Positions 6,038-17,079 of a stretch of DNA of 64,000 bases are shown here, piece by piece. The stretch is from Leptolyngbya sp. BC1307 (lineage in GTDB: Bacteria; Cyanobacteriota; Cyanobacteriia; Phormidesmidales; Phormidesmidaceae): assembly GCF_002286735.1 (NCBI RefSeq), contig NZ_NRTA01000003.1, positions 124,001-188,000 of the forward strand, given 5' to 3'. Both the position numbers and the translations under genes were made by a program. Under the pieces are notes generated by a model. It did no database searches and was not told where the DNA came from. It saw only the letters and a program-made list of their open reading frames with translations. How positions within the stretch are numbered: the first letter of the stretch is position 1; every line of letters starts with the position of its first letter.

Positions 6038-6538
6038 ATGGCCCGCCCTCATCCCGATAGCGCCGATCAACCAGCCGTTACCTGCGCAGTACTCACGGTG
6101 AGCGATACCCGCACGCCTGAAACTGACAAGAGCGGGCAGCTCATACAGGATCAGCTCGCCGCTGCAGGCCATCGGGTGAGCGACTATCAGGTAGTCAAAG
6201 ACGAGCCCGAGCAGATTGCAGCGCTGGTACAGAGCTTAGCAGCGCGTTCGGATATTCAGGCAATTCTTCTCAGCGGCGGCACGGGCATTGCACCGCGCGA
6301 TACCACTTACGATGCGCTAGCGCGGCTGCTCGACAAGGAGCTGCCCGGCTTTGGTGAGATTTTTCGTCAGCTCAGCTACGCAGAAATTGGGTCACGGGCG
6401 ATCGCCTCACGCGCCGTTGCCGGCGTCTGCAACGCTACCCTAATTTTCTCACTTCCCGGCTCTAGCAACGCCGTTGCGCTAGCGATGGAAGCGCTAATTT
6501 TGCCAGAGATCAGACATTTAACTTCCCTGCTTCGGTAA
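6038..6538 (+). CDS. moaB: Molybdenum cofactor biosynthesis protein MoaB
   Basis: 166 residues of the MoaB/Mog family. Motifs visible are AVLTVSDTRT (near residue 20), LLSGGTGIAPRD (near 80; the MPT-binding GGTG loop) and LPGSSNAV (near 145). The family adenylylates molybdopterin before metal insertion, although some MoaB proteins have little activity. It lies 18 bp downstream of psb28. A 13-bp direct repeat (ttcggtaaaccgt) starts at the end of the gene and recurs 23 bp later. Confidence 0.95.
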   Translation: MARPHPDSADQPAVTCAVLTVSDTRTPETDKSGQLIQDQLAAAGHRVSDYQVVKDEPEQIAALVQSLAARSDIQAILLSGGTGIAPRDTTYDALARLLDKELPGFGEIFRQLSYAEIGSRAIASRAVAGVCNATLIFSLPGSSNAVALAMEALILPEIRHLTSLLR

Positions 6539-6669
6539 ACCGTCTTCTATTCTTTCGGTAAACCGTATGGGGTGAACGCACCTACCGGCAGCGGGTGGGC
6601 GGGCTATCTACACCTGACGGCAACAAACTCATCTGCGATGATGAATATGTTGGCTAAGGACACCCCTGG

Positions 6670-6969
6670 ATGAAGAAACAACACTTTTCGAATACCTTAC
6701 ATAATCTCTATCGTAAAGCGCTCAGACATACTAAGTACCGCTGGATCGTGATTTTCGGGACGCTGTTGTATCTTGTCAGTCCGTTGGATATTTCTCCAGA
6801 TGTTTTTCCGGTTTTAGGCTGGATTGATGACGGGTTGGTAGTTAGCCTGCTAGTGACCGAGATGAGCCAGATTTTGGCTGAACAGATCAAGCAAAAGCGA
6901 CCCCTCGATAGAGAAGCAGAAACCGCTGACGCTCAGACCATCGCCGTCGAAGCCGTAACGATGAGCTGA
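6670..6969 (+). CDS. DUF1232 (YkvA-like) small membrane protein
   Basis: 99 residues. The signature YLVSPLDISPDVFPVLGWIDDGLVV (residues about 36-60) defines DUF1232, a short family with one or two membrane-embedded hydrophobic segments and unknown biochemistry. The N-terminus is basic (MKKQHF...YRKALRHTKYRW), consistent with cytoplasmic orientation. It is followed after 57 bp by a gene for a helical protein on the same strand, and the strong terminator at 7651-7688 closes the unit. Confidence 0.9.
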   Translation: MKKQHFSNTLHNLYRKALRHTKYRWIVIFGTLLYLVSPLDISPDVFPVLGWIDDGLVVSLLVTEMSQILAEQIKQKRPLDREAETADAQTIAVEAVTMS

Positions 6970-9488: not shown

Positions 9489-9667
9489 TAAACGGGCGAG
9501 ATGGCAGGAACTAATATAGTTAACAAGCTAATCTCCCTCGTATCCCTGTGTTTTAAGTGAATTTACGGTGAACAAGCCAGTCGCAGAGATGAAGAGATGC
9601 TTACCGGAAGTTTATGATAAGTATCCGGCTCCAACCAGCATCGGGGCAGGGCGGGGAACCTGGCCAT

Positions 9668-9779
9668 TCTCAGATTGGCAGTCTCAGATTGGCATTCTCA
9701 GATTGGCAGTCTCAGATTGGCAGTCTCAGATTGGCAGTCTCAGATTGGCAGTCTCAGATTGGCAGTCTCAGATTGGCAG
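9668..9779. repeat. Tandem repeat, eight copies of a 14-bp unit
   Basis: Eight exact or nearly exact copies of tctcagattggcag; only the second copy differs (final g to t). The unit length is not a multiple of three, and all copies are nearly identical, which indicates recent slippage expansion. There are no spacers, so this is not a CRISPR array. A reading frame through it exists only because the repeat has no stop in any of the three frames. Confidence 0.95.
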
Positions 9780-9807
9780 TACAGTATCAGTATCCAGGCG
9801 CAGATCC

Positions 9808-9851
9808 AAAAAAACAAAAAAAGGTGCAAATGGTTAATTCCCATCTGCACC
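9808..9851 (-). terminator. Rho-independent terminator of dnaK
   Basis: On the minus strand an 11-bp stem (plus-strand 9841-9851 with 9823-9833, one mismatch) is followed by a T-rich tract, TTTTTTTGTTTTTTT (plus 9808-9822). It lies about 105 bp downstream of the dnaK stop codon. Confidence 0.85.
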
Positions 9852-9956
9852 CTTTAGCCGAAGCATTCAATTGTCTTACTCGTTGCTCAATCATGAATAG
9901 CTTTGCCCGCTATGCCTGAGTTGGCTAAATGGCGAGCTTTAGCTTTCTACCGCTGA

Positions 9957-11870
9957 CTACTGATTGTCTGTCTCAGAGAACTCAGCATCGATGACATCGT
10001 CTTCACCGCTAGTAGAGGCACTGTCAGTGGGCTCACTGGCTGTATCGGCGGCGGCATCAGGCGCTGCCTCACTGCCCTGCTGATAGAGGTTGCTGCTAAG
10101 TGTGTAGAGCGCCTGCTGCAGGTCAGTCATCGTAGACTTGATCTTGTCGTAATCTTCGGCAGCGATCGCGTCCTTCAGCTCCTTCACCTGCGCTTCGATT
10201 TTCTCTTTGTCCTCAGCAGGTACCTTGTCGCCCAGCTCTTCTACCTGCTTTTCAGCCTGGTAAGCCAGCGAGTCGGCCTGGTTTTTGGTGTCAATCCGCT
10301 CACGGCGCTCTTTGTCAGCGTCAGAGTTGCTCTCAGCGTCGCGCACCATCTGCTCCACTTCATTTTCGGAGAGCGTAGACGCACCCGTGATGCTGATCGA
10401 CTGCTCTTTGCCCGATCCTTTGTCCTTAGCCGTGACGTTGAGGATGCCGTTAGCATCAATATCAAAGATCACTTCAATTTGAGGAACGCCGCGCTGAGCC
10501 GGGGGAATGCCGTCTAGCCGGAAGATGCCCAAGTCCTTGTTGTCGTTGGCCATTTCCCGCTCACCCTGGAGCACGTGGATCTCCACATTGGTCTGCCCAT
10601 CGACAGCGGTCGAGAAGACCTCTGACTTTTTGGTAGGAATGGTGGTGTTGCGAGTGATCAGCTTCGTCATCACACCGCCTAGGGTCTCGACACCCAACGA
10701 TAGCGGGGTCACATCCAAGAGCAGAATGTCTTTGACTTCGCCTGCAAGCACACCGCCCTGAATAGCAGCGCCAATGGCGACCACTTCATCAGGGTTCACC
10801 GTTTGGTTAGGCTCTTTATCCAAAATTCGCTGAACCAGGCTTTGTACTGCCGGAATCCGAGTAGAACCGCCTACTAGGACGACTTCGTCAATATCCGACT
10901 TGCTGAGCTTGGCGTCTTTGAGCGCGTTTTGTACGGGCACACCGCAGCGATCAATCAGATCAGAGCACAGCTCTTCAAACTTAGCGCGGGTCAAGGTGGT
11001 ATCTAAGTGCTTAGGCCCGTCTTGAGTAGCCGTGATAAACGGCAGGTTAACTTCTGCCTGAGTCACGCTAGATAGCTCAATCTTGGCTTTTTCAGCCGCT
11101 TCGGTCAGACGCTGGAGCGCCTGCTTATCTTTGCGCAGGTCGATGCCTTCTTTTTTGGCGAAGTCCTCAGCGAGATAGTCAACCAGCTTTTTGTCAAAGT
11201 CGTCACCGCCTAAGTGCGTATCGCCTGAAGTAGAGAGCACTTCGAAAACGCCGTCGCCAACTTCTAGAATAGAAACGTCAAAAGTACCGCCGCCCAAGTC
11301 AAAGACGAGGATAGTTTCGTTGCTCTTTTTATCTAAGCCATAGGCCAGCGCAGCGGCGGTCGGCTCGTTGATGATTCGCAGTACTTCTACGCCTGCAACT
11401 TTACCGGCGTCTTTGGTAGCCTGACGCTGGGAGTCATTAAAGTAGGCAGGAACCGTGATCACGGCCTGCGTGACCTTTTCGCCCAGGTACTTACTAGCGT
11501 CGTCTACGAGCTTACGTAGCACCTGCGATGAAATTTCTTCGGGGGCGTACTGCTTCCCGTCAGATGTTTCAATTTTGACATTGCCGCCAACTTTGGCGAT
11601 TTTATAAGGCACTTCGCTAGCTTCGTTATTGACTTCGTCATACTGACGGCCAATGAAGCGCTTGACTGAATACAGCGTATTCTCGGGGTTCATCACCGCT
11701 TGCCGCTTGGCGATTTGGCCGACGAGGCGATCGCCATTTTTGGCATAGGCCACGACCGAAGGCGTGGTGCGAAAACCTTCAGCGTTGGCGATAACAGTAG
11801 GCTTACCGCCTTCCATCACAGCCACAACCGAGTTAGTGGTCCCCAGGTCAATTCCGACTACTTTTCCCAT
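9957..11870 (-). CDS. dnaK: Chaperone protein DnaK (Hsp70)
   Basis: 637 residues, full Hsp70 length. The ATPase domain shows [13 protein letters not shown] (residues 6-18), the phosphate-2 motif [12 protein letters not shown] near 192 and [10 protein letters not shown] near 333. The substrate-binding domain begins near 385 ([14 protein letters not shown]) and the helical lid runs to a Ser/Ala/Asp-rich tail ending [10 protein letters not shown]. DnaK binds exposed hydrophobic peptides in an ATP cycle driven by DnaJ and GrpE; neither partner gene is adjacent. Cyanobacteria carry several dnaK genes; the length and simple acidic tail fit the main heat-inducible DnaK2 type, though paralogue assignment needs a tree. 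No CIRCE element was recognised upstream. Confidence 0.97.
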
Positions 11871-12112
11871 ATCTTGCTCCGACTGAATAACTAACGACGA
11901 TTTGTTCGTAAGGGTTATTCATATAGTGCTCAATCAGAGGCGGTTTACTGAAGGGGGGGTTACCGAACCCGAGGCTTCGGCTACGCTCAGCTCTCAGCGG
12001 GTCTTGACTTTGGCTTGTGGCTTCTTAAGGAAAAAGCACAGAATGGCTCAAACGGGAAAATAAGACGCAGGATAGAGGTCAGTTTAATATTTGCCAATAA
12101 TTTCTTAATGGA

Positions 12113-12150
12113 AGAAAAACACCTGACCGTAGCGTTTATGTACGGTCAGG
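12113..12150 (-). terminator. Terminator of the TerB-dynamin operon
   Basis: A perfect 10-bp inverted repeat (cctgaccgta 12122-12131 with tacggtcagg 12141-12150, 9-nt loop) is followed on the minus strand by TGTTTTTCTTCC. It lies 20 bp past the stop codon of the membrane-anchored partner gene. Confidence 0.8.
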
Positions 12151-12169
12151 GCGATCTGGGTCGCTCAGT

Positions 12170-13456
12170 CTATGCCACTGCTGCGATCTTCAAATCTTCT
12201 TCTTCGGCTGCCAAGGATTCGTCTCGGATAGCAAAATACAGCTCTAGATTTGCCACCGTGAGCGGAGAGGCTTGCTTCAAATTTCGAGGGCTAAGTGCTG
12301 TCAGAGACTCTAAAGCTGCTCTTTCGGCAATATATTCTTCGCCCTGCCGCCGCAGCTCCGGACTAAATGAATAGACAAGGCTCTCGTGTAGAGCCTCGGG
12401 CACAAAGTTAGATTTGAGATCTTCATAAACTGAGTACTCGATTGGTCTGTCGTCAGCGGGATCTTCTATGATCACGTCACTTTCAGCCTTTTCAGCTTCA
12501 TCATCTACAGATGCATTCAGCTGCTTCATTTCCTCGGCAGAGAGCGTTTCAACCCATTCAATACGCTCATTCCACGCATTGATAGCCACTAGATCGTGGT
12601 TGTGGATTCTAGTAAGCTCTGGAAATAGGAAGTCTAGCTCATCAGTAGTTTCAACTTTATCTAAGGTGGCTACAGCATCCTGACGGATAGTGGCATTCAG
12701 AGCGGTTAGGCGATCGCTCACCGTTTGCCATTCCCCCTGCATCTGATAGGTCATTGCGATCGCCTGCTCAATTGCCCATACACATTCGCACCGACGAATA
12801 TACGCAGCCGAACCAACCCCGATCATCAACTGGCCATTGTCATAGTCTGATAGCGCTCGGAACATCATGTCCCTAGCGGCTTTGATCTCATCGCTGCGCG
12901 ATCTCAAATCCTGCATAGTCATTGCAGAGCATAGCCGATTCATTGCCTTTTCAAACAGGCCGTAAGCCCTCGCTAGAATTGTACGGTGAGCCCTAAACTC
13001 CACATCGTCTGACACCTGCTGAATATGCTTAATCAGCTCAACGCCTTGATCCGCAAATACCTGCTTAAGGTCAATGAATCCTTCCCTCACTTCAACGCGC
13101 ATTTGCCGCACGTCTTTTCTAAGCTTGAGCGTTTGCCATAGATTTACGGCAGAGAGGGCAGCTACGGCTACTGTACCGACACCAATTACAGCCGTAGTCG
13201 CTTGCAAGGTTGCTACCGATGCAGAAAGCGCCTTGATTCCTTGTAGTGCTTTATGACCTTGGTATAGTTGCCCTGCTCCCATGAGCATTTGTGGCGCAGC
13301 TGTCAGTGGATTCAGACTCATGCCAATGGCGTGTGCAGCAAATTGACCTGTTGCAGCATCTCGAACCATTCCAATCGGAACGCCCGCAGCCGTTTCAACT
13401 GGAATATATTTTCCGGCTGCAATTCCTATCTGTACTAAAGGCGAAAAATCGTACAT
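12170..13456 (-). CDS. Membrane-anchored helical protein, partner of TerB-dynamin GTPase
   Basis: 428 residues with no family I can name. Residues 12-45 hold a distinctive motif (IAAGKYIPVETAAGVPIG, then RDAATGQFAAHAIG). A long hydrophobic helix at about 82-105 (ATTAVIGVGTVAVAALSAV) looks like a single membrane anchor or hairpin. It is followed at once by the charged coiled segment LRKDVRQMRVEVREGFIDLKQ, then mainly helical sequence with DELDFLFPELTRIHNHDL near 273 and an acidic region near 320. It starts 31 bp after the GTPase stop codon on the same strand and ends at its own terminator, so the two form an operon. The context suggests the pair works at a membrane; the biochemical role is unknown. 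Confidence 0.85.
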   Translation of the reverse strand: MYDFSPLVQIGIAAGKYIPVETAAGVPIGMVRDAATGQFAAHAIGMSLNPLTAAPQMLMGAGQLYQGHKALQGIKALSASVATLQATTAVIGVGTVAVAALSAVNLWQTLKLRKDVRQMRVEVREGFIDLKQVFADQGVELIKHIQQVSDDVEFRAHRTILARAYGLFEKAMNRLCSAMTMQDLRSRSDEIKAARDMMFRALSDYDNGQLMIGVGSAAYIRRCECVWAIEQAIAMTYQMQGEWQTVSDRLTALNATIRQDAVATLDKVETTDELDFLFPELTRIHNHDLVAINAWNERIEWVETLSAEEMKQLNASVDDEAEKAESDVIIEDPADDRPIEYSVYEDLKSNFVPEALHESLVYSFSPELRRQGEEYIAERAALESLTALSPRNLKQASPLTVANLELYFAIRDESLAAEEEDLKIAAVA

Positions 13457-13487
13457 GGCTATAACTCCTTTGATAAATGAATCTGCT

Positions 13488-16085
13488 TTAACTCAGGGCT
13501 GTTCTAGTTAAGCTCTCAAGCGCTGTTTCAATCGTTTGTAGCTGAAGCTTCTTTTGCTGAATAATTACTGACTCCACTTCCTTTTGTGCCAAGGTTTCTT
13601 TCAAAACGCCTTCTTGCTGCTCTAGCAGATTGCACAGAATAGAAATAGAAGCGCTTGCTGATTCATGAAAGTCTTGGGCCTTTTTATCAAAGGCGCTTTC
13701 GATGTTTTCGGTAATCCTGGTCAAAATCTCGTCAGAGGCTTCTACAAATTTATCTATGCCTTTATTGAAAGCTTCTACTTTCAGTTCCTCTTTCATCTCT
13801 TCTACATCCTTTCCGAAAAGCCAACTGGCAGCGGCCCCAGCTATGCCACCTGTAAGTAAAATAGGCCATAGCCCAAATCCGGCAAAAGCCAAAGCTCCCG
13901 CAGCAGCCATACCGCCTCCCTTCAGACCTAAATCGCCCCAGAAGCCTGTAGCATCTCCTACGGCGTCAGGATTAAGCTTGGAATGAAATTTGAGGTTGAC
14001 TCCCAAACTCGATAGCTCGAACTGCTTCTGTAGGCCAGCACCAGTCTTGTCATCAATAGATTTAAGGTCTTGCTGTATGGTCGCTAGCTTCTTGATAATT
14101 TCACTCTCTAGCTCGTCTACCTTAGGCTTTAGAATAGTCTGCATAACAGCGTTTTTCAGCCAATTATCTAATTCTTCAGAGATATCCTGTACGAATTTTT
14201 CTGCATAGTCCTTGACAATAGCTGCCTTTTGCTCGTGTTGCGTTGCCCACTTCTCTTTTCTGCTGGCGAGGCAATCATCAACATCGTCTAGCCATTGATC
14301 CCATGAGTCGCTGACCTCTGATAGCGCTTCCTCAATTAGTGACTCTTTGAGCACCTGAATTTTGATGTCGAACCCACTTATCGCGCCCGTTTTCTCCAAT
14401 ATCTTGTGCTGCTCTGCTGCTGAAAGGCTGAGCTTGCCTTCCAAGAAATTCGTCATTTTCTCGAATCCATCTTGAATTCCCGAAACAAACCGTTGAACGT
14501 TCACAATTCCTTTCATAAGGCTCAGTTCGCCTCTTTCCTCTACCAAGAATGTTTCAAGTGCGCTCACAAATGCTTCAAATGACTCAGAGTGCTCGTTTAC
14601 GGTCTGTGTCAAAGTTGCTTCTAACGCAAATCGCGCAGACACAAAATGAACCCGATTATCGCTACTTAATAAAGGATTTTCTGGATTGCACACGACGTTT
14701 TTGACTAGTGTTTTGACTTGCGTTTCGTCATTGGGCGATCGCAGCAAATCCATAAAGTTAATCAGCACAAATAGATTATTAGCCGGAGCTTCAGGGTCTT
14801 CTGTTTGCAACCGATGCTTCAGGCTCTCTAACAGATCTCGCTCGCCCTTGGTCATCGGGCGCTGCGCATTTGCTAAGAAAATAGCCGCGTCGATATCTCG
14901 TAATAGTCTCTCTGTTACAGCCGTCCGATCAGGATGTTCGTTCAGACCAGGAGAGTCCACAATCTCTACATGATGGCGGCACAGCTCTAGCCCCGGATGC
15001 TCCAGCACAATTTCAGCAATATTCGATTCGGCTAGCTCAAGCTCTCGGTTGCCTAAAGCCGCTTCCTCTGGAATAGACGCCTGCTGCTGATACTGCTCGA
15101 AAGGAATGACGGCCTGGGTGCCATCTTTGTAATGGCAGACCACTCGCTTTTCAGCCCCGTACTTCAGCACTGTCAGCGTTCCACTACAGGGAATCGCCCG
15201 CACGGGCTGTAGCTCCTCACCTAGCAGCGCATTCAGGAACGTCGATTTCCCTTGGCTAAATTCGCCGACAATCGCCAATCGAAACTTCTGTGATTGAACT
15301 TTTTGAGCAAGTGATCGCACTGCATCTTCGAGTACCGCAAGAAAAATATTACAGTCGCCTTCCTCCTGTAGCACTTCTATAAGATCAGTACAGATTTGGC
15401 TCAACTGCGCCTGATAGCCTTGAAACTTTTCGAGTTTTGCATACGATGGCTTACGGCTGGCTGGGCGCGATGCGCTTTTCGGTTGAGCTAAAAACTTAGA
15501 GGACAAAAAGCTGGCAGCATTGACAATTGCTGCATCAATATTTTGAAAGCGCTGAGGATCTAGCAACCACCGTAGTTCCTCTACAGCCTCTTGTTTGACT
15601 TCTGCTCGCTTACCATCAAGGCAGGAGAGCAGCGCTTTTACTTGATGAGCTGGCACGTCTATTACGCTGGCTACTGTGTTGAGATACTTGCGTTCTTGCA
15701 CTTCTGCGCAGCCATCTGCGATCGCTAATCTATGGCCAAACCCCAAAATGATCAGCTTTTCAGAAACCGATAGTGAGTCCGTCAAACAACTGATTGCGTC
15801 TAGGCGATTATAAATTTCATGCTTCCGTATACCCTTGAGCATCAAGGAAATCATTTTTCCAAGGCTGCTCTCAGGTGATGCGAACTGACTCAGGACTTTC
15901 TGGAGATACAGCTTTTCACGGTCTGCTAGCTGGCCATCTGCGTAGGCGACACCCACTAGCACCGTCGTCATTGCCGACAAAAACATCACCCGAGGTGTCA
16001 GATGGCGATCCAGCACCTTTTGACCTGTGATCTGCGTCAGAATATCTGCGCCGTTCAGCTTTTTTGCAGCAAGGGTTGAGGACAT
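13488..16085 (-). CDS. Dynamin-family GTPase with N-terminal TerB-like domain
   Basis: 865 residues. Residues about 30-155 resemble TerB: two acidic helical repeats, AYADGQLADREK near 47 and AIADGCAEVQERKY near 121. A GTPase domain follows with P-loop GEFSQGKS (274-281), G2 threonine in SGTLT (301-305), G3 DSPGLN (377-382) and G4 NFMD (443-446, in place of NKxD, as in several bacterial dynamins). Long helices (about 505-700) form the stalk. A glycine-rich hydrophobic stretch at about 723-757 (GMAAAGALAFAGFGLW...) is a likely membrane-inserting paddle, followed by a return helix. Bacterial dynamin-like proteins oligomerise on and remodel membranes; some act in membrane repair or phage defence. 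First gene of a two-gene operon. Confidence 0.92.
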   Translation of the reverse strand: MSSTLAAKKLNGADILTQITGQKVLDRHLTPRVMFLSAMTTVLVGVAYADGQLADREKLYLQKVLSQFASPESSLGKMISLMLKGIRKHEIYNRLDAISCLTDSLSVSEKLIILGFGHRLAIADGCAEVQERKYLNTVASVIDVPAHQVKALLSCLDGKRAEVKQEAVEELRWLLDPQRFQNIDAAIVNAASFLSSKFLAQPKSASRPASRKPSYAKLEKFQGYQAQLSQICTDLIEVLQEEGDCNIFLAVLEDAVRSLAQKVQSQKFRLAIVGEFSQGKSTFLNALLGEELQPVRAIPCSGTLTVLKYGAEKRVVCHYKDGTQAVIPFEQYQQQASIPEEAALGNRELELAESNIAEIVLEHPGLELCRHHVEIVDSPGLNEHPDRTAVTERLLRDIDAAIFLANAQRPMTKGERDLLESLKHRLQTEDPEAPANNLFVLINFMDLLRSPNDETQVKTLVKNVVCNPENPLLSSDNRVHFVSARFALEATLTQTVNEHSESFEAFVSALETFLVEERGELSLMKGIVNVQRFVSGIQDGFEKMTNFLEGKLSLSAAEQHKILEKTGAISGFDIKIQVLKESLIEEALSEVSDSWDQWLDDVDDCLASRKEKWATQHEQKAAIVKDYAEKFVQDISEELDNWLKNAVMQTILKPKVDELESEIIKKLATIQQDLKSIDDKTGAGLQKQFELSSLGVNLKFHSKLNPDAVGDATGFWGDLGLKGGGMAAAGALAFAGFGLWPILLTGGIAGAAASWLFGKDVEEMKEELKVEAFNKGIDKFVEASDEILTRITENIESAFDKKAQDFHESASASISILCNLLEQQEGVLKETLAQKEVESVIIQQKKLQLQTIETALESLTRTALS

Positions 16086-16246: not shown

Positions 16247-16325
16247 GAGAAGGCGATCGCACCTGTGACGTGAAGGGACGAGCTGGCACAGTAAAATGGG
16301 AAGGGCGATCGCCTCGTATCCAGAG

Positions 16326-16643
16326 ATGAGTATGATTTACGACGTTATTCTCAGTAGAAAGGACGATCAGTATATTGCCCGTGCTAAACAGTGGCCTGAA
16401 ATTATAGCTGTTGACAACAGCCGTGAGGCTGCGATTGAGCAGCTTAAATCCCAACTCCTTGACTATTTAACGAATGAGGTCGAGGTGGTTCAAATCGAAA
16501 TTCCAATTTCAACACAGACTGGAAATCCCTGGCTCGATAAATTTGGTTGGTTTAGGGACGACTCAACTTTCGACGACTTACAAGCTGAGATCGCGGCCTA
16601 TCGGCAAGAAATAGAGCAAGAGATGGAGTCCCTTGCGGATTGA
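16326..16643 (+). CDS. Antitoxin, HicB-like small protein paired with PIN toxin
   Basis: 105 residues from the ATG at 16326; the frame opens 30 bp earlier, but this start fits the family beginning (MSMIYDVILSRKDDQYIARAKQWPEI). The N-terminal half has the short strand-helix pattern of HicB-like antitoxins (substrate-like RNase H fold, NSREAAIEQLKSQL). The C-terminal half (WLDKFGWFRDDSTFDDLQAEIAAYRQEIEQE) is the acidic helical tail expected to wrap the toxin. The PIN-domain gene starts 13 bp downstream. It would neutralise the toxin and probably autoregulate the pair. Confidence 0.85.
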   Translation: MSMIYDVILSRKDDQYIARAKQWPEIIAVDNSREAAIEQLKSQLLDYLTNEVEVVQIEIPISTQTGNPWLDKFGWFRDDSTFDDLQAEIAAYRQEIEQEMESLAD

Positions 16644-16656
16644 AATCGCGTCTTAG

Positions 16657-17079
16657 ATGGCTTTATATATTTTGGATAGCGATCATTTGAGCCTTCATCA
16701 ACGCGGTTATGAACCGCTCGGTCAGCGATTGCTCACGATTTCTCCTAACCAGGTCGTCATCACTACGATTAGCGTTGAAGAGTTAATTCGAGGACGTTTG
16801 TCACAAATTCGGAAAGCAGCTAACTCTCCAGAACGAGTTCGTGCTTATTACTGGTTCACAAGAACTCTCGAATTTCTGCGTGATTTTACGGTACTGGGCT
16901 ACGATGCCGAAGCAGAAGCCTACTATCAGACCCTGCTTGCCCGAAAAGTTCGGATTGGCACACAAGATTTGAGAATTGCAGCGATCGCGCTAAGCCAGGG
17001 CACAACCTTAGTCACCCGTAATCGACAAGATTTCGAGCGTGTTGTGAGCCTAAATTTTGAGGACTGGTCAGTATTGTAG
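16657..17079 (+). CDS. PIN-domain ribonuclease toxin, VapC type
   Basis: 140 residues. Conserved PIN acidic residues are visible: Asp in LDSDHLSL (residue 7), Glu in TISVEELIRG (near 41), and Asp in IGTQDLRIAAIAL (near 109), followed by LVTRNRQDFERV near the C-terminus. VapC toxins are Mg-dependent endoribonucleases that cut tRNA or rRNA and arrest growth when the antitoxin is lost. It is downstream of and closely linked to the HicB-like antitoxin gene (13 bp). The active-site residues appear intact, so it is probably functional. Confidence 0.92.
   Translation: MALYILDSDHLSLHQRGYEPLGQRLLTISPNQVVITTISVEELIRGRLSQIRKAANSPERVRAYYWFTRTLEFLRDFTVLGYDAEAEAYYQTLLARKVRIGTQDLRIAAIALSQGTTLVTRNRQDFERVVSLNFEDWSVL

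Follow-up and report, generated by a model that had tools for sequence, protein, structure and literature searches.

What does a bacterial dynamin do when it is fused to a TerB domain and encoded next to a putative membrane protein that is not itself a dynamin? Bacterial dynamins are common and their cellular roles are mostly open, and the question is raised here by two adjacent reverse-strand genes in a 64,000-nucleotide stretch of Leptolyngbya sp. BC1307 (contig NZ_NRTA01000003.1, positions 124,001 to 188,000; the window). The first gene (13488-16085) encodes an 865-residue protein, DYN, in which the open reading frame (ORF), Pfam and a profile match identify a TerB domain and a dynamin of the bacterial dynamin-like protein (BDLP) type. 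After a gap of 31 bp (13457-13487, from the ORF coordinates) the second gene (12170-13456) encodes a 428-residue partner of no known family, PART, which was characterized from its ORF, from Pfam, NCBIfam, PADLOC and PDB searches and from a 27-member alignment. We find that PART and a dynamin stalk, whether or not GTPase and TerB domains come with it, are hardly ever apart as a gene pair. The cassette represents a subfamily of dynamins whose membrane partner is near-obligate and is not itself a dynamin.

The evidence for pairing comes from 89 PART copies recovered by genome searches, with about a dozen small fragments and the G466 and G446 places left out and two doubly seen contigs counted once; gene calls were mechanical. 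Sixty-nine copies are near-intact, in that they start at or before model position 50, end at or after position 417 and occupy a single frame, and at 68 of these 69 cyanobacterial loci a DYN homologue is found within 1 kb. The lone exception (L036) sits at a contig end, and a piece of DYN lies at the end of another contig in the same genome. Viewed from the other gene, DYN orthologues scoring above 250 bits occur in 17 of 292 genomes, all of which also carry PART; the scores that follow are 129, from the latter half of one such gene, and 117, and a maximum of three candidates was scored per genome, so copies may be missed. PART itself is patchily distributed, and the window that carries it lies in a cyanobacterium near Phormidesmis. 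A search with the sequence matched 27 of 292 cyanobacterial genomes and the 27-member profile matched 40 of 386 genomes and 26 of 143 genera, some of them through fragments alone; PART is present in 10 of 63 genomes of the window's family and in six of seven of its genus, some genomes hold several copies, and a one-sequence scan of genome contigs, which bears on occurrence outside Cyanobacteria, returned two close relatives only.

The partners of the 68 paired PARTs differ in architecture. TerB, GTPase and, where uncut, stalk are present in 27 (one is split by a frameshift, L038, and one cut by a contig end, L114), GTPase and stalk without TerB in three (L035, L039 and L119) and the stalk alone in 34 (two of them split into frames, L046 and L123), while two are seen only as contig-end pieces (L031 and L032) and two are decayed (L047 and L069). 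The stalk-only loci are not independent, as 21 of the 33 checked have the same kinase neighbor and belong to one genus; at L178 the partner is a divergent stalk-only gene at a distance of 961 bp. At L069 (10449-11207) DYN has lost TerB and GTPase in frame and lacks its last residues beside an intact PART, and this gene is either a natural step to a stalk-only cassette or a decaying gene. On the PART tree partner type changes at least four times when decayed L069 is treated as its own type; the tree has weak forks, and its well-supported branches force fewer changes. On this reading stalk and PART are the irreducible core of the cassette, and GTPase and TerB look like dispensable regulators.

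These counts bear directly on a preliminary description of the locus, made from the sequence alone, which had read it as a two-gene cassette and suggested that the pair could be a membrane-surveillance or anti-phage module, with TerB sensing a metal or stress signal and the dynamin remodeling the membrane. That the two genes form a conserved unit is borne out by the co-occurrence survey. The operon is not general: 59 of the 68 pairs are divergent and nine are co-directional with the partner upstream (L070 and eight from the window's family), so the arrangement in the window is the unusual one. Nor is TerB supported as an essential sensor, given that three GTPase-bearing and 34 stalk-only partners lack it.

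Is the short partner truly a dynamin stalk? Nine aligned stalk-only proteins of 338-352 residues align only with DYN residues 497-863 (hhalign probability 99.4, E 2.6e-21), which marks the DYN stalk/trunk at 13497-14597(-) as the counterpart of the stand-alone proteins found elsewhere. The AlphaFold2 model of one of them has a predicted local distance difference test (pLDDT) score of 84.5; Foldseek ranks BDLP 2j69 first (E 1.8e-3, probability 0.99, low TM-score) with no hit below E 0.001, and the VIA-align rows include MxB, MxA, IniA, SynDLP, LeoA and OPA1 with Z up to 12.2. Structural Z alone is not decisive for helical models; because most of the structure list belongs to the dynamin family, in line with the sequence profile, we conclude that the stalk-only partner is dynamin-derived but is not a dynamin GTPase. 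Across the 292 genomes the stalk-only profile gives ten strong places, and since nine of these are its own members, chosen for adjoining PART, the profile cannot alone prove pairing. It detects no further full-length stalk-only gene away from PART in the 292 genomes, and of the weaker matches with no PART nearby, those in G195 and G197 are remnants and the one in G096 is marginal (E 1e-4). Natural stalk-only versions part the scaffold from the motor and predict that PART binds the stalk. Neither a GTPase-less bacterial dynamin stalk nor a TerB-dynamin fusion was found described in the literature searched, which is weak evidence as few subscription papers and preprints were covered.

In three genomes stalk-only cassettes coexist with a stand-alone TerB gene elsewhere, and TerB might possibly be supplied to them in trans. 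Stand-alone 198-residue proteins close to the TerB domain of DYN (L082:9187-9783, L083:8769-9365 and L085:8885-9481) score 198-208 bits against the DYN profile and have identical neighbors in three genomes, which by eye resemble menB, tadA and plsC.

By motifs and architecture, DYN itself is a complete, TerB-fused BDLP. TerB spans residues 38-151 (15633-15974; Pfam PF05099, 34.2 bits, cut-off 24.4) and the Dynamin_N GTPase core residues 270-424 (14814-15278; PF00350, 90.7 bits, cut-off 27), both on the reverse strand, as are the motifs that follow. The P-loop GEFSQGKST lies at residues 274-282 (15240-15266), the G3 motif DSPGLN at 377-382 (14940-14957) and the G4 motif NFMD at 443-446 (14748-14759), and G274, G279-T282, D377, P379-N382, N443 and D446 are invariant in an alignment of 13 DYNs. 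A Gly-rich hydrophobic paddle is recognizable in the sequence at about residues 718-757 (13815-13934), with its hydropathy peak at 726-744. A profile of the 13 DYNs matches BDLP (2j68) over 213-855 with E 1.1e-51, which shows that trunk and paddle are present as well.

For PART, the AlphaFold2 model (pLDDT 78.3, predicted template modeling score 0.78) consists of a short helix, a three-stranded element and an otherwise helical chain. Model and consensus place the N-terminal motif at a short helix, 6-13, and three strands within 17-44 (13325-13441, -), and it is missing from three of the 27 aligned members (L059, L060 and L061). The best 19-residue hydrophobic window covers residues 86-104 (13145-13201, -), and the helical region, residues 139-427 (12176-13042, -), is modeled in blocks mostly of pLDDT 72-96 except at about 310-340. 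Beyond the 3' end of the gene a predicted intrinsic terminator lies at about 12122-12150(-), where the fold of 12110-12165(-) has -20.7 kcal/mol and z -4.35 and is followed by a T run; it is absent from the consensus-scan list, its loop being judged too long for the scan pattern. PART has no match in Pfam, NCBIfam or PADLOC; against the PDB its sequence gave no hit under E 1.5 and its profile none under E 0.054. When the window is compared with two relatives, the ratio of nonsynonymous to synonymous divergence (dN/dS) of PART is 0.10-0.11, at dS of about 1.0 and 1.4, near saturation; PART is accordingly under purifying selection and the genes are not chance ORFs. What the preliminary description had read at this level, namely the TerB-like domain, the complete GTPase with its three motifs, the paddle, and the family-less partner with its membrane segment, 31 bp spacing and terminator, all held up.

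Where does the cassette touch the membrane? The hydrophobic window reaches 1.5-2.2 in all 27 PART members (in L060 with its peak at a different place) compared with 1.4 or less in all nine aligned stalk-only proteins; L057 is intermediate, without a GTPase yet with a value of 2.4. Judged by hydropathy, the aligned versions share one membrane element, the hydrophobic segment of PART.

Several candidate identities for PART were rejected. Kinship with phage tape-measure proteins was suggested by a single weak PHROGs match (E 0.03), and a viral structure library gave nothing at E 0.001. The tetrad VQIG was compared with what we take to be the RHIM motif; it is not conserved in the family, which has IQAG, IQEG, LQAG and TQAR elsewhere. 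A Zn-ribbon at the C-terminal end of one PART scores 18.6, under the Pfam cut-off of 22.9. Homology between PART and DYN was not found by profile-profile comparison (hhalign probability 0.2%, E 0.24, 19 columns).

The C-terminus of PART is variable, as a survey of ten full-type cassettes of one genus shows. Four PARTs are bare, at 429-430 residues (L107, L108, L111 and L112), three carry an acyl carrier protein (ACP) domain (L109, L115 and L040), one carries a degenerate ACP and about 290 further residues (L113), and two, of 823 (L110) and 700 residues (L037), are extended without an ACP match. By eye, the phosphopantetheine serine is retained in L109, L115 and L039, the last from a different genus, and lost in L040 and L113; in six genomes the ACPs that appear to be the genomic ones share 64-72% identity with the ACP fused to PART in L109. 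Directly 3' of one PART lies a 154-residue gene with a CdiA_C toxin-type domain (L038:8633-9097, -; E 7e-9), followed by two small genes that by position could be immunity genes. A small hydrophobic Gly/Ala-rich ORF of 112-119 residues also recurs 3' of PART in one genus, even at differing genomic sites (L107:675-1013, L109:10015-10356, L111:5071-5430, L112:9163-9501 and L124:6026-6364); the single copy scanned had no Pfam match.

The two genes of the cassette evolve very differently. Twelve full-type cassettes were seen in one genus; we compared all but the two cut by contig ends (L114 and L180), ten in number, and took the first 430 residues of PART. DYN identity is lower than PART identity in 43 of the 45 same-genus pairs (medians 0.76 versus 0.87), a flanking gene that looks aroF-like by eye is at 0.965 in the ten pairs that share it, and in five of the same genomes the ordinary BDLP has a median identity of 0.91 versus 0.75 for DYN. 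Distances among DYN segments are uncorrelated over the ten cassettes (r -0.04 for TerB versus GTPase, r -0.13 for GTPase versus stalk), whereas GTPase and stalk of the ordinary BDLP, in five genomes only, give r 0.93. Individual pairs show the mosaic directly: L113 and L037 have the GTPase class in common (95%) but not TerB (77%), L107 and L115 the stalk (91%) but not the GTPase (83%), and L109 and L037 TerB (94%) but not the GTPase (79%). DYN segments fall into recombining allele classes, and DYN is a strongly diverged mosaic within one genus. In a second genus, two DYN classes of 55-56% identity occupy the same locus, where PART is 85-86% identical and the neighbors mostly 87-98%, some 66-80%; the variability analysis rests on these two genera.

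How did this divergence arise? In one pair dS of DYN is 0.96 versus 0.17-0.71 for PART and five neighbors, in another 0.60 versus 0.32-0.33 for PART and one neighbor; dN is raised as well, and no DYN segment has a dN/dS as high as 0.6. With dN and dS elevated together, the pattern is better accounted for by long-lived alleles that recombination exchanges than by rapid point change. Among the DYN segments, TerB alone has distances that correlate with those of PART (r 0.54), and it is the segment that adjoins PART in divergent pairs. Co-variation of PART and DYN across families (r 0.83 in 13 pairs, r 0.92 in nine stalk-only pairs) was set aside as a sign of interaction, as shared descent alone can yield such values and within one genus r is 0.22. 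Within a genus DYN thus varies in the manner of a recognition gene, unlike the ordinary dynamin found in the same cells, and its mosaic variability newly raises the suspicion of a role in recognition or conflict.

We therefore favor, at a probability of about 0.42, a reading of the cassette as a membrane-acting sensor-effector pair with a conflict or recognition role. A conflict role, against phage or rival cells, seems to us most likely because of the allele shuffling, the multiple copies, the frequent decay and the exchangeable PART C-terminal additions. The hydrophobic element of PART would insert into a cell membrane, and PART would be held or scaffolded by the stalk/tail of DYN, which alone is retained in every intact pair type. 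In the full version TerB and GTPase would gate DYN assembly on the membrane; a cue recognized by the variable surfaces of DYN would release or cluster PART, which may then seal, remodel or permeabilize the membrane. If so, cyanobacteria possess a polymorphic dynamin-based defence or self-recognition device, although an anti-phage function is unproven. In a more specific form, which we regard as unlikely but worth stating, DYN would be a combinatorial receptor with shuffled TerB, GTPase, stalk and paddle alleles, PART a conserved membrane-permeabilizing or -sealing effector with exchangeable C-termini, possibly baited with a fused host-like ACP, and a naked stalk would suffice in other versions; the dynamin fold would then serve immunity or self-recognition without a GTPase.

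Several results weigh against a conflict role. Searches of 72,556 plasmid records, 50,697 phage records and the viral contigs revealed no PART, and a single genus carries it in 28 of its 29 genomes, which fits lineage-specific housekeeping too. The variability has its exceptions: within one DYN class of the second genus the DYNs of L122 and L058 are more alike (93%) than their PARTs (90%), stalk-only pairs show no excess stalk divergence, and at r -0.06 between PART and DYN-stalk distances within the genus no allele-specific PART-stalk interface is seen. The predicted enrichment beside defence genes did not appear either. We compared 140 neighbors from 24 loci (143 drawn, three dropped for size) with 133 control proteins (140 drawn at 20 arbitrarily chosen places in genomes that carry PART, seven dropped, 19 places represented), excluding ORFs below 90 residues, so that small toxin-antitoxin genes are uncounted. 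PADLOC at E 1e-10 gave 116 families for the neighbors and 87 for the control; among the best 25 the same kinase-type families lead, PD-T4-6 is found in 4 of 140 versus 3 of 133, and mad3 is found in 5 of 140 neighbors and not among the control families listed. Among the best 25 Pfam families ABC_tran stands at 5 versus 2, Uma2 at 4 versus 2 and kinases at 4 versus 3, and AAA_21 has 5 in the neighbors and none among the control families listed. This small test of 24 loci reveals no clear defence-family enrichment beside the cassette. The preliminary reading of the locus is thus partly supported: a conserved unit with a membrane-associated partner holds, and an operon, TerB as the essential sensor and defence-gene enrichment find no support.

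The effector half of the proposed mechanism draws a hint from structure. In a VIA-align ranking run on Foldseek candidates, the PART model superposes on Cry toxin domain I with Z up to 11.1 (180 residues, root-mean-square deviation (rmsd) 3.0) and on JukB, a pore-forming effector of phage defence (PDB 9jht), with Z 8.8 (163 residues, rmsd 3.7, 11% identity). Helical bundles can reach such Z by chance, the values are below the level of about 13 that the tool deems safe for them, and Foldseek itself returned a best E of 0.13-0.28 and none at E 0.001, so that the resemblance is no more than a hint, its low scores weighing against the reading; the model resembles helical pore-formers only weakly. 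Domain I of three-domain Cry toxins fills 16 of the best 18 VIA-align rows at 3-9% identity, and PART, helical but for its three N-terminal strands, has no Cry domains II and III. Passages of PMC13282480 describe tetrameric pores formed by JukB; the likeness to the Juk system, compared for JukB only, is within the chance range for helical bundles.

The strongest competitor, and a reading with a substantial if minority claim, is ordinary membrane remodeling or repair. Eukaryotic dynamins are recruited by adaptor proteins; PART could likewise be a membrane receptor that recruits dynamin through the stalk, the pair shaping or repairing plasma or thylakoid membranes and the stalk-only versions serving as static scaffolds. 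The full BDLP architecture of DYN, the near-fixation of PART in the one genus and the lack of defence enrichment all suit this account, as do descriptions of BDLPs as common in cyanobacteria and acting on membranes (in sections of PMC5827413) and of Bacillus subtilis DynA as supporting membrane integrity (PMC8844932). It sits less easily with the patchy distribution, with the multiple copies in some genomes, with the truncation of 20 of the 89 PART copies (at least one, L180, itself cut by a contig end) and with a DYN far more variable and mosaic than the ordinary BDLP of the same genomes, the features on which the conflict reading is built.

It is improbable, in our judgment, that the variability reflects no recognition at all and that DYN alleles are merely swapped by neutral recombination among related strains at a tolerant locus. 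The raised dS and the low dN/dS throughout DYN would be expected from such exchange; the adjoining PART, the flanking gene and the ordinary BDLP are less diverged, however, the last is not mosaic, and the deep DYN classes at one locus of the second genus stand beside a far more uniform PART.

About as improbable is a toxin-antidote or polymorphic-effector pair in which PART would act as a membrane toxin whose C-terminal payloads can be exchanged, with the stalk as its neutralizer or carrier: partners at 68 of 69 near-intact but, within 800 bp, only six of 20 truncated PARTs make a merely suggestive asymmetry, the C-terminal additions, the one CdiA_C gene and the tentative structural likeness to Cry domain I and JukB agree with it, and the reverse case of an intact stalk gene adjoining a broken PART exists (L075), but in divergent pairs one deletion takes both DYN and the 5' end of PART and so explains the asymmetry mechanically, L069 keeps an intact PART beside a badly decayed DYN, and many PARTs have no added domain.

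How does the cassette compare with known dynamin systems? DYN resembles BDLP/NosDLP of Nostoc punctiforme (2j68, 2j69 and 2w6d) along its length in GTPase, trunk and paddle, and adds the N-terminal TerB domain and hypervariability. In tandem pairs (NosDLP Tandem A/B and the Campylobacter DLP pair) both members are dynamins, which does not hold for PART. The Tandem A/B clades, with a second dynamin where DYN has PART, are set out in the 2018 survey of cyanobacterial BDLPs together with KGK, HSR1 and chaperone clades and an unclassified rest (PMC5827413), and its section on BDLP clades names neither TerB nor a PART-like partner. Stand-alone TerB proteins share with DYN only the domain at 38-151, being single-domain genes in another neighborhood. 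Eleos (LeoA/LeoBC) is a two-gene unit around a dynamin-like protein. DYN partly matches the PADLOC models LeoA (E 4e-18) and LeoBC (E 1.4e-11); PART matches neither and is unrelated to DYN, and an identity of the cassette with Eleos was rejected. B. subtilis DynA is encoded by one gene and has neither a TerB domain nor a PART partner. This bacterial dynamin is described in PMC8844932 as delaying phage lysis and as having a protective membrane role; it shows that a dynamin can serve phage defence, not that DYN does.

Some neighboring genes deserve mention. Downstream of PART on the same strand the window carries a dnaK-like gene (9957-11870, -), as do the Phormidesmis relatives L031 and L032; for comparison, a chaperone clade is listed among the cyanobacterial BDLPs in PMC5827413. 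A similar-looking small protein of 126-200 residues, without a Pfam match, adjoins three cassettes (L035:6185-6670, L043:12800-13402 and L069:8570-8950), and two ORFs that by eye resemble cas1 and cas2 lie beside a stalk-only cassette (L048:5772-7042). Just upstream of DYN in the window is a pair that looks HicB-like and PIN-like by eye (16296-17079, +), with a similar pair near the L061 cassette (6169-6965). Finally, adjoining the 3' end of dnaK, short tandem repeats at 9568-9919 of the window encode DWQSQIGSLRLAV in overlapping ORFs.

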